Positions 24,399 through 29,134 of a DNA stretch of 64,000 bases are shown here, in pieces. Positions within the stretch are counted from its first letter, which is position 1. Every line of letters begins with the position of its first letter. Source of the DNA: Bacteriovoracia bacterium (GTDB lineage: Bacteria > Bdellovibrionota > Bacteriovoracia > Bacteriovoracales > Bacteriovoracaceae); assembly GCA_030431635.1 (NCBI GenBank), contig JAUIIL010000002.1, forward strand, positions 248,001-312,000, written 5' to 3'. The position numbers were made by a program, and so were the translations under genes. The notes under the pieces were generated by a model. The model worked only from the letters and a program-made list of their open reading frames with translations. It did no database searches and was not told the origin of the DNA.

Positions 24399-25748
24399 AT
24401 GAAAAAATTAATAGTTGTTTTTTTTATCTTATTATTAGCTCCAGTTCGTTCACAAGATGAGATGACGATTGTAGCTATTGGTGAAGCTAAGCTTAAGAAA
24501 GTCAAAATAGCTATTGCTCCACCTTTATTTATTTCAAACCTCAACAAACAAAAATCAAAAGTAATGGCCGAGCTCTACGAACTTTTAAAGAATGATTTTT
24601 CATTTTATCGTCATAAACTCCAGCTTTTTGAATATGATAAAAAGGAAGGAGGCGAACCTTTTAATACGGCCAAATATGATTATTGGAAATTGAAGGATTA
24701 TAGTTATGTCATTTCTTTTAGAGTAACAGACTCGAAAAGCGATAAGTTTAATATTTCAACGAAAATGTATAATGTAGGCTCTAATGAAATTGAATCGGAA
24801 AGAGAGTTTACGATTTCAACAAAGGAAGTCAGGGAAATCGGACACCAGGTTTCAGATTTTCTCTACCAAGGAGTATTTGGCAAAGAATCGATTTTTAAAA
24901 CTCAAATTGTGTTTGTCTCTGATGAAGCAACAAAGAATAGGAAAATCAATCAAATAAAAGAGCTCTATATAATGGACTTTGATGGATATAACGTGAAGAG
25001 GCTTACCTATCATAAAGGAAATGTTATCTCTCCGGCGATCTCTCCTGATAAGAGTAAGATTGTTTATAGTCTTGTTCAAAATTTCAAAGTGAAAAAGAAA
25101 AGAAATGTGGATTTAAGAATTCTAGATCTTAAAACACTTAACTCACAAGTTCTCTCCGATAAATCAGGTTTAAATACTGGTGCTTCTTTTACAGCTGATG
25201 GAGGAAGTATTCTTCTTACTCTAAGTTTAGGTGGGAATGCTGATATTTATAAAATGAATTTGTCTTCAAAAAAGTTATCTAGATTAACATCTCACTACTC
25301 TGATGATGTTGATCCTTCATTGAGTTCTGATGGAAAACTGATGAGCTTCCTCTCAGGTCGCTCTGGAAGGGCCCATATATATACAGCAGATGCCAGTGGT
25401 CTTGAAAAAAATGTTCAACGAATAAGTTACGTTGGACGTTTCAATGCGACCCCAAGGTTTTCCCCTGACAGTAAAGAAATTGTATTTAGTTCATGGGTAG
25501 ATAATCGCTTCGATCTTTATCGGATCGGTAGTAATGGCAGGGGTTTAGTGAGGTTGACCAAGAATTTTGGGTCAAATGAAGAGCCTATGTTTTCCAAAGA
25601 CAACGAGTTTATCATATTCACTTCTCAACGTGTTTTATCGGCCCAAAAAGCCATTCAAGACGTTTATATCATGAATCGCGAAGGGGAGATCCTTGGACAA
25701 ATTACAAAGGACTTTGGAAATTGTTCAGCCCCAAGATGGTCTAACTAG
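24399..25748 (+). CDS. tolB: Tol-Pal system beta-propeller protein TolB
   Basis: A 449-residue periplasmic protein with a signal peptide (MKKLIVVFFILLLAPVRS), an N-terminal TolB_N domain (about 30-170) and a C-terminal WD40-like propeller with repeats such as SPAISPDKSKIVY, DPSLSSDGKLMSF, TPRFSPDSKEIVF and EPMFSKDNEFIIF. TolB binds Pal and TolA in the Tol-Pal complex. It ends the tolQRAB operon. No pal gene follows; the next gene is a transcriptional regulator. Confidence 0.95.
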   Translation: MKKLIVVFFILLLAPVRSQDEMTIVAIGEAKLKKVKIAIAPPLFISNLNKQKSKVMAELYELLKNDFSFYRHKLQLFEYDKKEGGEPFNTAKYDYWKLKDYSYVISFRVTDSKSDKFNISTKMYNVGSNEIESEREFTISTKEVREIGHQVSDFLYQGVFGKESIFKTQIVFVSDEATKNRKINQIKELYIMDFDGYNVKRLTYHKGNVISPAISPDKSKIVYSLVQNFKVKKKRNVDLRILDLKTLNSQVLSDKSGLNTGASFTADGGSILLTLSLGGNADIYKMNLSSKKLSRLTSHYSDDVDPSLSSDGKLMSFLSGRSGRAHIYTADASGLEKNVQRISYVGRFNATPRFSPDSKEIVFSSWVDNRFDLYRIGSNGRGLVRLTKNFGSNEEPMFSKDNEFIIFTSQRVLSAQKAIQDVYIMNREGEILGQITKDFGNCSAPRWSN

Positions 25749-25798
25749 TTAAAATTTCATAGGGTGTGTATTTTTTTCAACACCTGAGCACTTTAGTC

Positions 25799-25826
25799 TT
25801 GTAAATTTTCCAGACAATGCTATACT
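25799..25826 (+). promoter_or_regulatory. Sigma-70-type promoter
   Basis: TTGTAA (25799-25804) and TATACT (25821-25826), separated by 16 bases, precede the GAF-AAA+ regulator gene by about 65 bases. Five of six -10 bases match consensus. Confidence 0.5.
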
Positions 25827-25891
25827 GAACAGGATTATGCATCGCGTAATAAATTTACAATATTGAACATTTGTCTGTAAAGGAGTTTGAC

Positions 25892-27397
25892 ATGACTACA
25901 GCTGCTAAGGTTAACGAACTTAACGAGCTCTCTAATCTTCTCGTTTCAACATTAGATGAAGGTGTCTTTTTTGGAAGCCTTTCCTCGTTCATTCACTCAC
26001 ATTTTAATGAACATAAGGTGCTTATCTATAAAAGTTACGACGATGGCTCGACTCAATTAGTGGCCGAAAATAACCGTTCAGTCATTGACTCTGAAATCTC
26101 AACAAGGGCCCATGGTTTATCTAGCTATGTAACGCGTACTAGAAGAGCTTATTATAGCAATGCAGTGAAAAGAGACCCCCTACTTGTTAATGTTGAGTAT
26201 GATAACGATGTAAGAGCGGAGCTTTGTGTTCCTATTAATTCAAAAGGAACAGTTATTGGAACAATTCATATCCGTTCAAAGAAAGAGTCAGGTGCCTTTT
26301 CAGAACTTGATATTCAAGAAGTTCAAAATATTCTGAGCGCATTAGAAGCTCCACTTAATAATATGAGAATTTATCTACTTGCTAAGAACTTAAATAGAGA
26401 GCTTATCAAGAGAATTGAAGCAAGAGAAAAGGAAACTAACAAAGGTGGATTTGTTAGAACCGGAACAACAGAACAATTAAAAGATCTAAAGGTAATAGGG
26501 CATTCAAAGGTTTTCACCGATACTATGAATCTCGTAAAGAAAATTGCTCCAGAAGATTTTCCTGTACTTATTGAAGGAGAGAATGGAGTAGGGAAAAAGC
26601 TTATTTCTAAAAAGATACATGATTTAAGTGAAAGAAGAGACTCTGCTTGTATTGTGGTTCACTGTAGTTCATTAAATGACGATGTTCTTGAAACAGAATT
26701 ATTTGGAAAAGATGAAAATAAGGGACTAATAGAGCTTTCAAATGGTGGGACTATCATTCTTAATGAGGTTTCTGAGCTTTCTTTAAACCTTCAAGGTAAA
26801 CTTCTACGCTTCCTTTTAAGTGGAGAAATATACAGAGTTGGTGGAGAAAGAGGAATTCCTGTTAATGTAAGAATTCTCTCTACTTCTAAGAAGCAACTTC
26901 AAAAAGAAGTTGATGAAGGAAAATTTAGAGAAGATCTTCTCTATAGGCTCAATACTGTCTCTTTGTTCATCCCAGCTCTTAAAGAAAGAACTGATGATAT
27001 TAAAGTGTTGGCGGAACATTTTTTAAACCTAAATAGAGATAAAGAACAATTTAAAGTTTTAACTAACAAAGCAGTAGATGTTCTTGTTAACTATAATTGG
27101 CCAGGAAATGCTCAAGAGCTAAGAAATATTATGGAAAGAACGTATGTTCTTGCCGATGGAAAGTATATCGATGAAAACCATCTTCCACACTTAGTTGTTG
27201 AGGATAAGAAAACTGAAGTAAACTCTGTAGAAGAGTTTGCAGAGATAACTTTAGCTGAGCTTGAGAAAAGACATATCATCAGAACTCTTGACCATCTCAA
27301 TGGAAATAAGACAAAGGCAGCAAGAGCTCTAGGTATTACAGTTAAGACTCTTTATAACAAGCTTCACAGTTATGGACTTGTTGCCGCAAAAAATTAG
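25892..27397 (+). CDS. GAF-AAA+-Fis regulator, sigma-54-activator family without GAFTGA
   Basis: A 501-residue protein: GAF sensory domain (about 10-165), AAA+ domain (about 200-425) and Fis-type helix-turn-helix (about 467-492, NKTKAARALGITVKTLYNKL). Walker A is GENGVGK (229-235) and the sensor region FREDLLYRLN is kept. The GAFTGA loop that contacts sigma-54 is deleted: ELFGKDENKG runs straight into LIELSNGGT. Walker B reads IILNEV, with Asn291 for Asp. It is therefore probably not a conventional sigma-54 activator, but a DNA-binding regulator that may act as a repressor or with sigma-70, as TyrR-like members do. The ATG at 25892 follows AAGGAG; a TTG 21 bases upstream overlaps no ribosome site. 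Confidence 0.9.
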   Translation: MTTAAKVNELNELSNLLVSTLDEGVFFGSLSSFIHSHFNEHKVLIYKSYDDGSTQLVAENNRSVIDSEISTRAHGLSSYVTRTRRAYYSNAVKRDPLLVNVEYDNDVRAELCVPINSKGTVIGTIHIRSKKESGAFSELDIQEVQNILSALEAPLNNMRIYLLAKNLNRELIKRIEAREKETNKGGFVRTGTTEQLKDLKVIGHSKVFTDTMNLVKKIAPEDFPVLIEGENGVGKKLISKKIHDLSERRDSACIVVHCSSLNDDVLETELFGKDENKGLIELSNGGTIILNEVSELSLNLQGKLLRFLLSGEIYRVGGERGIPVNVRILSTSKKQLQKEVDEGKFREDLLYRLNTVSLFIPALKERTDDIKVLAEHFLNLNRDKEQFKVLTNKAVDVLVNYNWPGNAQELRNIMERTYVLADGKYIDENHLPHLVVEDKKTEVNSVEEFAEITLAELEKRHIIRTLDHLNGNKTKAARALGITVKTLYNKLHSYGLVAAKN

Positions 27398-27412
27398 GAT
27401 AAACAAATAAAA

Positions 27413-27441
27413 ACGACTAGCTGCGCAAAGTGGCTAGTCGT
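27413..27441 (-). terminator. Hairpin with T-rich tail on the minus strand
   Basis: ACGACTAGC (27413-27421) and GCTAGTCGT (27433-27441) form a perfect 9-bp stem with an 11-base loop. Read on the minus strand it is followed by TTTTATTTGTTT, a classical intrinsic terminator tail; on the plus strand the tail (CTGTTGAAATT) is poor. It may still end plus-strand transcripts of the upstream regulator gene. Confidence 0.55.
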
Positions 27442-27490
27442 CTGTTGAAATTCAGTTATTTAAAAAGTAGAATGAAGGAGCCTATAGAGT

Positions 27491-27694
27491 ATGGGAGACA
27501 ATATGACAGACACCACACAAGAGAAAAAAAGTACTGTAGTTGAATTTAAATCATTCAAAAGCAACCCAGATGTAGAGAATTTTTATCGTTTTGTTTATGA
27601 AAATTCTTTGCGTTTTGAAGCAAGAAAACTTCTAGAGCATGTTCTTCATAAAACAAAGAAGAAAAGATCTAGAAGAAGCAAAACGCTTCAATAG
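27491..27694 (+). CDS. Small basic protein
   Basis: A 67-residue protein with an acidic to neutral N-terminus and a strongly basic tail (HKTKKKRSRRSKTLQ), which could bind nucleic acid. No family is recognised. Two starts are possible: ATG 27491, with AAGGAG ten bases upstream, and ATG 27503, with GGGAG six bases upstream. It lies between a regulator and an HD phosphohydrolase gene in the same orientation, 21 bases before the latter. Confidence 0.6.
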   Translation: MGDNMTDTTQEKKSTVVEFKSFKSNPDVENFYRFVYENSLRFEARKLLEHVLHKTKKKRSRRSKTLQ

Positions 27695-27715: not shown

Positions 27716-29134
27716 ATGGATGGAAACTCGAAGCAAAAAATCATTTACGATGTTCTTTATGGTTTTATCGATATAACTCCCGTTGAATGGGAGCTCATTC
27801 ATAGTCCCTTTTACCAAAGATTACGTTGGATTAAACAATTAGGTTTTTCTTTTTATACTTTCCCTGGTGCTGAACACTCGCGTTTTGGGCATTCGATTGG
27901 GGTTATGTTTAATTCCCATAAAATTTTGGAATCTATTGGTAAGGCAGTTCCGATTTCAGAGCTGATTAAGAGTGGAAACCTCTCAACTCAGGCCCATTAT
28001 AACCAAACAATCAGAATTGCAGCTCTTTTACATGACATTGGAACATTTCCATTTTCCCATACCACTGAAGCTGCTTACATTGATTTTGGTGAAACGAAGA
28101 AAAAGAAAGGGCATCAAGATGATCATGAACATCTTGGATCTTTTATCATAAAAAATACTGATTATGAGGGAGGAATTACTTATATCCTTAAAAAGTATCA
28201 CATAGACCCTCAGCAGATATCTAATCTTGTCAAAGGTGTCGATGATTCCTATCTGGCCAATCAAATTTTACATTCAGAAATAGATTGCGATCGTATGGAC
28301 TATTTACTAAGAGATGCTCACTATACAGGGCTTCAATATGGAACTTATGATAGAGATTATTTACTCCATCATTTTGTCGCTAAAGACATTGGTGGGCATA
28401 ATGTCTTGGCCATTAAAAAAAATGCTCTTCATTGTGTGGAAGATTTTTTAATGTCAAGGTTTGCCTGGTACTCACAAGTTGTTCGTTCTGCAAGAGGAGC
28501 GAAGTTCGATGCTATGGCCCAAGAGATTACCTATTTCTTATTAGAAAAAAAGATGATTCACAGATACTCAGAACTACTAGATATGGTTAGCAAGAAACCA
28601 GTTGATTTTTATCACTTTAACGATAATTACTTCATGAGTCTTTTGCATGAGCATTTTGTTAAAGAGAATTTTAAATCTAATGAGAGAATTGAATCTCTGG
28701 TAGAAGGTGTATTATTTGAAAAAAGTCCTAAAACGGTTAAATGTGAAGAACTTGCTCAAAGGCTTCTTAATCAGGATGAAGAACAAAAAAATCAAAAAAT
28801 AGTTAAGAAGGCAATGGAGAAAATTGAAGAAATAGAAAAAGTTTTAGAGAAATATGGAACAGAGAAAGATTGGATTTTAATTGATCTGCCAGAAAAAGAT
28901 ATAAGTTTTGTTCGTTCAAAAAAGAGAATTGTTAAAAATAAGGTTTTTGATAATGTTTTACATGAGAGGGATCCTGTTAAAATCTCTCTTGGTGGAGATG
29001 AAGTTTGTCTACTTGTTGATGTTGAAGAGTCTGTTATTTCTCAATTACAAAAAACAATTAATTTTATTCCAAATGTTTTTTGTTCAGAATCGGCCTATAA
29101 AATTTTGCAAGAGCAGGGTGTAATAGAAGAGTAA
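27716..29134 (+). CDS. HD-domain phosphohydrolase (SAMHD1/dGTPase-like)
   Basis: The 472-residue cytoplasmic protein carries an intact HD metal site in order: an early SRFGHSIGV histidine (about 55-62), LLHDIGTFPFSH (105-115) and the later HSEIDCDRMDYLLRDA. This is the pattern of the YdhJ/SAMHD1-type dNTP or nucleotide phosphohydrolases. The C-terminal 200 residues are charged and helical. A role in dNTP hydrolysis is inferred from the family; the substrate is not shown. The ribosome site (AAGGA) is rather far, about 13 bases, from the ATG. Confidence 0.88.
   Translation: MDGNSKQKIIYDVLYGFIDITPVEWELIHSPFYQRLRWIKQLGFSFYTFPGAEHSRFGHSIGVMFNSHKILESIGKAVPISELIKSGNLSTQAHYNQTIRIAALLHDIGTFPFSHTTEAAYIDFGETKKKKGHQDDHEHLGSFIIKNTDYEGGITYILKKYHIDPQQISNLVKGVDDSYLANQILHSEIDCDRMDYLLRDAHYTGLQYGTYDRDYLLHHFVAKDIGGHNVLAIKKNALHCVEDFLMSRFAWYSQVVRSARGAKFDAMAQEITYFLLEKKMIHRYSELLDMVSKKPVDFYHFNDNYFMSLLHEHFVKENFKSNERIESLVEGVLFEKSPKTVKCEELAQRLLNQDEEQKNQKIVKKAMEKIEEIEKVLEKYGTEKDWILIDLPEKDISFVRSKKRIVKNKVFDNVLHERDPVKISLGGDEVCLLVDVEESVISQLQKTINFIPNVFCSESAYKILQEQGVIEE

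Follow-up and report, generated by a model that had tools for sequence, protein, structure and literature searches.

A GAF-containing relative of sigma-54 enhancer-binding proteins that has lost GAFTGA in nearly all of the Bacteriovoracaceae, and its probable role at sigma-70 promoters

The window analysed here is a stretch of 64,000 nucleotides from a Bacteriovoracia genome (G000; 3.32 Mb in 19 contigs). On its forward strand, an open reading frame at 25892-27397 (ATG at 25892, stop codon at 27395-27397, Shine-Dalgarno sequence AAGGAG at 25880-25885) encodes a 501-residue protein, here called the window protein, which is an enhancer-binding protein (EBP)-like regulator without GAFTGA: a GAF domain is followed by a degenerate sigma-54 activator AAA+ domain, a lid and a Fis helix-turn-helix (HTH). 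Pfam places GAF_2 at residues 12-148 (25925-26335, +), Sigma54_activat (PF00158) at 201-358, AAA_lid_14 at 364-443 and HTH_8 at 453-493, and the two domains that mark a bEBP, the Sigma54_activat AAA+ domain and the Fis HTH, are recognized with 153 and 47.8 bits. The GAF domain contains YYSNAVKRDP (residues 87-96), of which Y87, S89, N90, R94, D95 and P96 are nearly invariant among the orthologues. A TolB-like protein is encoded upstream (24399-25748, +), and a conserved 63-residue open reading frame with no Pfam match (27503-27694, +) and an HD-domain protein (27716-29134, +) lie downstream; these neighbours were matched in 51, 53 and 47, respectively, of the 54 family loci examined, with some of the misses being contig ends. 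A strong hairpin just past the stop codon (27413-27441, +; -20.2 kcal/mol for 27400-27460, z -5.3) has no strict T-run and is absent from the terminator scan output, and is possibly the end of a single-gene transcript. An open reading frame similar to the 63-residue one also occurs near the EBP in two genomes from another family (L060 and L063).

At the level of sequence, the GAFTGA segment of the window protein is missing and Walker B and sensor II are altered, and Walker A and the Fis HTH are kept. In the L1 region, intact relatives read ELFGHEKG[AS]FTGA...GLxEx, and the window protein has ELFGKDENKGLIELSNG instead (26696-26746, +). Its segment from ELFG to Walker B has 17 residues, nine fewer than the 26 found in each of the 13 intact rows of our alignment, and lacks the GAFTGA that characterizes the L1 of a functional bEBP. 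The Walker B motif, GTIILNEV (26747-26770, +), reads IILNEV with Asn 291 replacing Asp, giving Asn-Glu where a functional bEBP has Asp-Glu. Walker A (GENGVGKK, residues 229-236; 26576-26599, +) is conserved, and the residue after its lysine is Lys in the window protein versus Glu in all intact rows. The arginine-finger region FREDLLYRLN (26924-26953, +) retains both arginines of RxDxxxR, and the recognition region of the Fis HTH, GNKTKAARALGITVKTLYNKLHSYG (residues 471-495; 27302-27376, +), is near invariant in the family. An earlier note on this DNA had described a deleted GAFTGA loop, LNEV rather than LDEI at Walker B, and an intact Walker A, arginine-finger region and Fis HTH, all of which is borne out here; it had overlooked the sensor II region WPGNAQEL (27098-27121, +), where Gln 408 takes the place of the usual Arg (GNAQEL versus GNVREL). 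The window protein therefore has the EBP architecture with GAFTGA lost, which is the description of the GAFTGA-less sigma-70 relatives of EBPs.

A search of 129 Bacteriovoracaceae genomes (E<=1e-55) found an orthologue in 123, and the best match of each was aligned together with 11 relatives from other families; rows incomplete at contig ends include L184, L185, L221, L236 and L237. The same proteins in named records are mostly from Bacteriovoracaceae, Bacteriovorax or Halobacteriovorax. G[AS]FTGA is absent from 121 of the 123 orthologues, the window protein included, and is kept in two, L030 (genome G027) and L175 (G103), both with LDEV at Walker B; all 11 relatives from other families are intact for it. 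One of the six genomes below the threshold, G024, holds a divergent orthologue, L306, which is also without GAFTGA and is adjoined by tolB and the small open reading frame. An assembly fault, which close homologues with GAFTGA would have revealed according to the earlier note, is ruled out, since L021, 73% identical and from another genome, has the same loop length and reads LNEI, and since the loss is common to 121 of 123 orthologues.

The remaining catalytic motifs differ among the 121 proteins without GAFTGA. The Walker B pair is DD in 31, NN in 30, NS in 14, KN in 10, NE in five and DE in one, with others besides, and the lysine corresponding to Lys 235 of Walker A is K in 119 and R in two. 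Of the two RxDxxxR arginines, the first is retained as R in 78 proteins and is K in 35, and the second is retained in 52 and not Arg in 69. Sensor II is R in 62 and not Arg in 59; the 69 and the 59 include rows cut off at contig ends. The clade of the window protein has a shorter loop and has lost sensor II, and most members of the other large clade have lost Walker B and the second arginine. Because the Walker B, arginine and sensor II states vary by lineage, the sublineages have shed different sets of motifs. A single protein without GAFTGA, L178 (G076), retains the Walker B Asp-Glu, as IDEI.

Conservation is distributed very unevenly along the protein. Among 43 GAFTGA-less genus representatives, mean pairwise identity is 0.40 in the AAA+ core (residues 201-363), 0.77 in the HTH and 0.91 in the recognition region (residues 471-495), versus 0.69, 0.64 and 0.80 in 11 intact outgroup rows; the two sets differ in depth, and it is the contrast inside each set that counts. 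Intact proteins thus conserve the AAA+ core slightly more than the HTH, whereas those without GAFTGA conserve it far less. With Walker A and the recognition region kept while the AAA+ core drifts, the gene resembles a maintained pseudo-activator rather than a decaying gene, and the pattern looks like that of a maintained DNA-binding protein.

The gene order tolB, regulator, small open reading frame and HD protein is also found around the intact L030, and at the locus of the intact L175 (named copy L127) the small open reading frame and the HD gene are present and tolB was not found; this conserved order supports orthology. In a tree of 50 rows, from which the columns of Walker A, of the loop with Walker B, of the arginine finger and of sensor II were excluded, the family is separated from the intact outgroups (100/100). 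The intact L030 and then L175 branch first, and the 38 rows that have lost GAFTGA lie on one side of one branch, so that one state change is needed; that branch is weak (66/29), and the bootstraps allow one to three changes, which indicates one or a few losses. GAFTGA was probably lost early in the history of the family, in one or a few events that followed the divergence of the G027 and G103 lineages. The loss is old, and the later erosion was piecemeal, with disused catalytic parts eroding differently in each sublineage.

An AlphaFold2 (AF2) model based on 24 family sequences keeps the AAA+ fold (mean pLDDT 83.5, pTM 0.48), and the AAA+ part of the model matches NtrC1, ZraR, FlrC and PspF with TM-scores by target of 0.82-0.90 (single-domain chains); NtrX and VpsR (7v2b) are also among the structure matches. 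Of the 35 solved chains listed by sequence similarity, ZraR and NtrC1 are the closest, with VpsR 7v2b behind them. None of the 25 NCBIfam models listed reaches its cut-off on the window protein: TyrR gives 194.7 bits against a cut-off of 576, DhaR 232 against 551, ntrC (TIGR01818) 210.5 against 558.6, and nifA, aligned over residues 6-431, 259.8 against 528.85. NifA-type GAF-AAA-Fis activators have the same domain order as the window protein, which differs from them in being below the nifA cut-off and without GAFTGA. NtrC of Rhodobacter capsulatus carries a receiver domain where the window protein has GAF, and VpsR has a receiver-type N-terminus and differs further in that it binds c-di-GMP.

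EBP relatives without GAFTGA are not a new class, as TyrR, DhaR, HupR, VpsR and the NtrC proteins of Rhodobacter and Caulobacter are known examples; one survey names TyrR, DhaR, HupR, VpsR and YplP, and counts about 110 homologues with minor deviations beside 4850 true and 121 putative activators (PMC3162934). In R. capsulatus NtrC, the GAFTGA loop is deleted, as in the window protein, sigma-70 is used, and ATP binding is needed but not hydrolysis (PMC10274813); its targets are nitrogen genes, and the description cited mentions no altered Walker B. VpsR of Vibrio cholerae shares a deletion within GAFTGA, as well as the structural match to our model, and is reported at sigma-70 promoters with no need for ATP (PMC3162934, PMC10274813). 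TyrR and DhaR of Escherichia coli have lost the interaction with sigma-54 and are sigma-70 dependent (PMC3162934), but the window protein is far below both of their NCBIfam cut-offs. Caulobacter NtrC has an eight-residue L1 deletion covering GAFTGA and acts at sigma-70 promoters, whereas it possesses and requires both the Walker A Lys and the Walker B Asp (PMC10274813). Point mutants of Caulobacter NtrC without GAFTGA nevertheless activated some sigma-54 genes (PMC12421884), a warning against certainty about lost sigma-54 function. The literature search found no paper on the orthologue group described here, which does not prove its absence from print.

Upstream of the gene lies a sigma-70-type promoter (25799-25826, +), with TTGTAA at 25799-25804, a 16-bp spacer, TATACT at 25821-25826 and TG before the -10 box. 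A promoter scan gave seven promoter-like sites against 5.9 expected, and the evidence for this one is its conservation across genera and not the match. Of 47 genus representatives, 44 have CTTGTA upstream and, about 16-17 bp further on, a -10-like box; the three without it (L050, L069 and L238) were left out of the promoter profile and of the 44-genus palindrome count below. The conservation at 25768-25815 goes beyond the needs of a plain promoter, extending upstream of the -35 box (consensus ACACCTGAG...TTTTAGTCTTGTAAA) and into the spacer (TTCAGAC).

A conserved palindrome, TTRYGC-N3-GCRYAA, lies across the expected start of transcription at an almost constant position. It reads TTATGCATCGCGTAA in the window (25835-25849, +; about +2 to +16), has the half-site TTRYGC and is a candidate autoregulatory operator. 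With up to two mismatches, it follows the promoter in 24 of 44 genera, whereas 359 palindromes with a permuted half-site are matched in 1.0 genera on average and in no more than 15; no match at this level was found in the other 20. It occurs somewhere in 75 of the 119 upstream regions that are 100 nt or longer (L082, L230 and L237, with shorter ones, were left out) versus 4.6% of shuffles. Both intact orthologues have it nearby, L175 as TTGTGCGTTGCATTA with one mismatch and L030 with two, and in 10 outgroup upstream regions the best match has at least three. An RNA hairpin in place of a DNA operator is less likely, because 9 of 113 half-site-fitting pair cells would be unable to pair as RNA; over all cells, 37 of 144 cannot pair, and the predicted fold of the 60-nt leader is no more stable than those of shuffled sequences (z 0.57). 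Given the position of the palindrome and the parallel conservation of site and HTH, we would guess that the window protein binds it.

The regulon was sought by pattern searches with up to one mismatch, using the reversed pattern as control. In its own genome, the palindrome occurs 25 times versus 20 for the control, with no clear enrichment, and the counts are 36 versus 46 in G034, 30 versus 25 in G035 and 51 versus 26, about double, in G009; in the genomes of the intact sisters, they are 63 versus 36 (G103) and 9 versus 25 (G027). With no clear enrichment in these counts, no regulon was found. The 20 of the 25 own-genome sites that were inspected, the own-promoter site not being among them, share no common theme and several are inside open reading frames. 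Within the genome, the promoter block CTTGTAANNNNTNCAGAC is matched exactly at this gene alone and so pointed to no co-regulated genes. A possible second target is the palindrome TTACGCACTGTGTAA at G000:C11:52204-52218 (L255), which resembles the operator form of a related genus and lies in the intergenic space between divergent open reading frames.

The explanation we favour, and regard as fairly probable, is that the window protein is a GAF-controlled regulator descended from a sigma-54 enhancer-binding protein, which has lost sigma-54 remodelling and regulates its own and other sigma-70 promoters. In our best reading, it would be an ATP-binding, probably non-hydrolysing and autoregulated protein, similar to R. 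capsulatus NtrC and VpsR. The lack of GAFTGA should prevent contact with sigma-54, and replacement of the Walker B Asp should make hydrolysis poor, as in PspF D107A, whose ATPase is highly defective (PMC3419264); the retained Walker A suggests an ATP-binding switch like that of R. capsulatus NtrC (PMC10274813). PspF E108Q hydrolyses poorly and yet remodels sigma-54 complexes (PMC4132715). Since the Walker B Glu and both arginines are kept, a residual ATPase activity of the window protein is possible. ATP would be bound without efficient hydrolysis, and the binding of ATP and of a ligand to the GAF domain, the likely sensor, may switch the conformation or the assembly of the protein. In dimeric or higher oligomeric form, the protein could then bind palindromes of TTRYGC half-sites and, by occupying the start of transcription, repress its own sigma-70 promoter; other sigma-70 promoters may also be regulated. 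Both the action on sigma-70 promoters and the lack of ATPase are inferred. The earlier note suggested that the protein is built like an EBP but should not remodel sigma-54 holoenzyme, and that it may be a GAF-controlled sigma-70 regulator. This is supported by the loss of GAFTGA in 121 of 123 orthologues, the presence of rpoN, the conserved HTH and Walker A, and the conserved sigma-70-like promoter with a palindrome over the start.

The main rival is that the protein is a pseudo-subunit or a dominant negative, co-assembling with an intact EBP of the same cell into mixed hexamers and tuning or blocking its sigma-54 activity. It was prompted by the Caulobacter NtrC mutants without GAFTGA that raise sigma-54 genes (PMC12421884), and PspF subunits with different defects do complement each other (PMC3419264, PMC4132715). 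Partners would be available, as the genome encodes nine further PF00158 proteins with G[AS]FTGA (L001-L009), and the window protein keeps the Walker A and arginine fingers that a ring interface needs. However, the second arginine and sensor II are not Arg in 69 and 59 of 121 orthologues, meaning that conservation of the interface is uneven, the almost invariant HTH suggests a DNA site of its own, and the conserved neighbourhood holds no partner gene; we therefore regard this rival as unlikely. We find it quite unlikely that the protein is purely an autorepressor or DNA-organising protein, with the AAA+ domain as an oligomerization scaffold, no useful ATP binding and its own promoter as the main target. 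That promoter is indeed the only well supported site, and there are two exact palindromes in the 3.3 Mb genome, but degenerate secondary sites would escape a pattern search, a Walker A Lys in 119 of 121 proteins is not expected if ATP binding is useless, and the nearly invariant residues of the GAF domain suggest that a signal is sensed.

A sigma-54 activator still working through other contacts is very improbable. The genome does encode RpoN (one match to its DNA-binding domain), which the earlier note had wanted checked, and the Caulobacter report of an EBP without GAFTGA affecting sigma-54 genes (PMC12421884) is a published hint in this direction; against it, GAFTGA, Walker B and sensor II are all changed in the window protein, and the losses differ among lineages, as disuse predicts. 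Scarcely credible is a decaying pseudogene, even though the catalytic part varies freely between lineages and the match in G001 (L069) spans one TAA: the matches from the other 122 of 123 genomes are free of stop codons, the recognition region stays conserved across genera (identity 0.91), and so does the promoter. A recent pseudogene is rejected by the sharing of the loss among 121 of 123 orthologues.

Returning to the GAF-controlled regulator of sigma-70 promoters, a wider reading is plausible but more tentative: the family may have turned a sigma-54 activator, orthologous throughout, into a pseudo-AAA+ protein that is maintained as an ATP-bound, GAF-gated regulator of sigma-70 promoters, with an ancestral operator over its own start site. 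ATP binding and the DNA code would have been frozen, while hydrolysis and sigma-54 contact were discarded and eroded by different routes in each sublineage. If so, the two intact orthologues place the ancestral beside the derived state of the switch with nearly the same recognition helix. The previously described EBP relatives without GAFTGA that we found are single cases or single genera, and as far as our searches go, a stepwise conversion throughout a family, with intact sister proteins and a candidate operator that is conserved, is new to the literature. With about 120 orthologues, a conserved gene order, two intact sisters and intact outgroups, the route from sigma-54 to probable sigma-70 regulation becomes reconstructable, including which motifs go first, what selection keeps and whether the target DNA was inherited. 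More practically, the label 'sigma-54-dependent regulator' would mislead across this family.

The genome G000 has 18 PF00158 matches, nine of which (L001-L009) combine G[AS]FTGA with a Walker B of DE or DD. Two further proteins are degenerate. L011 (G000:C3:110760-111224, +) is a second EBP-like protein without GAFTGA, with FSNI at Walker B, in a 318-codon open frame that has no N-terminal sensor and lies about 4 kb from the intact response-regulator EBP L004. An earlier tree joined L011 and the other paralogue, L012, to the orthologue group with a long-branch warning, and this join was discarded. L012 (G000:C4:272920-273369, +) is the third degenerate EBP of the genome: EIFGSET replaces the GAFTGA loop, Walker B reads FHEI, and its 663-codon open frame includes a GAF-like stretch.
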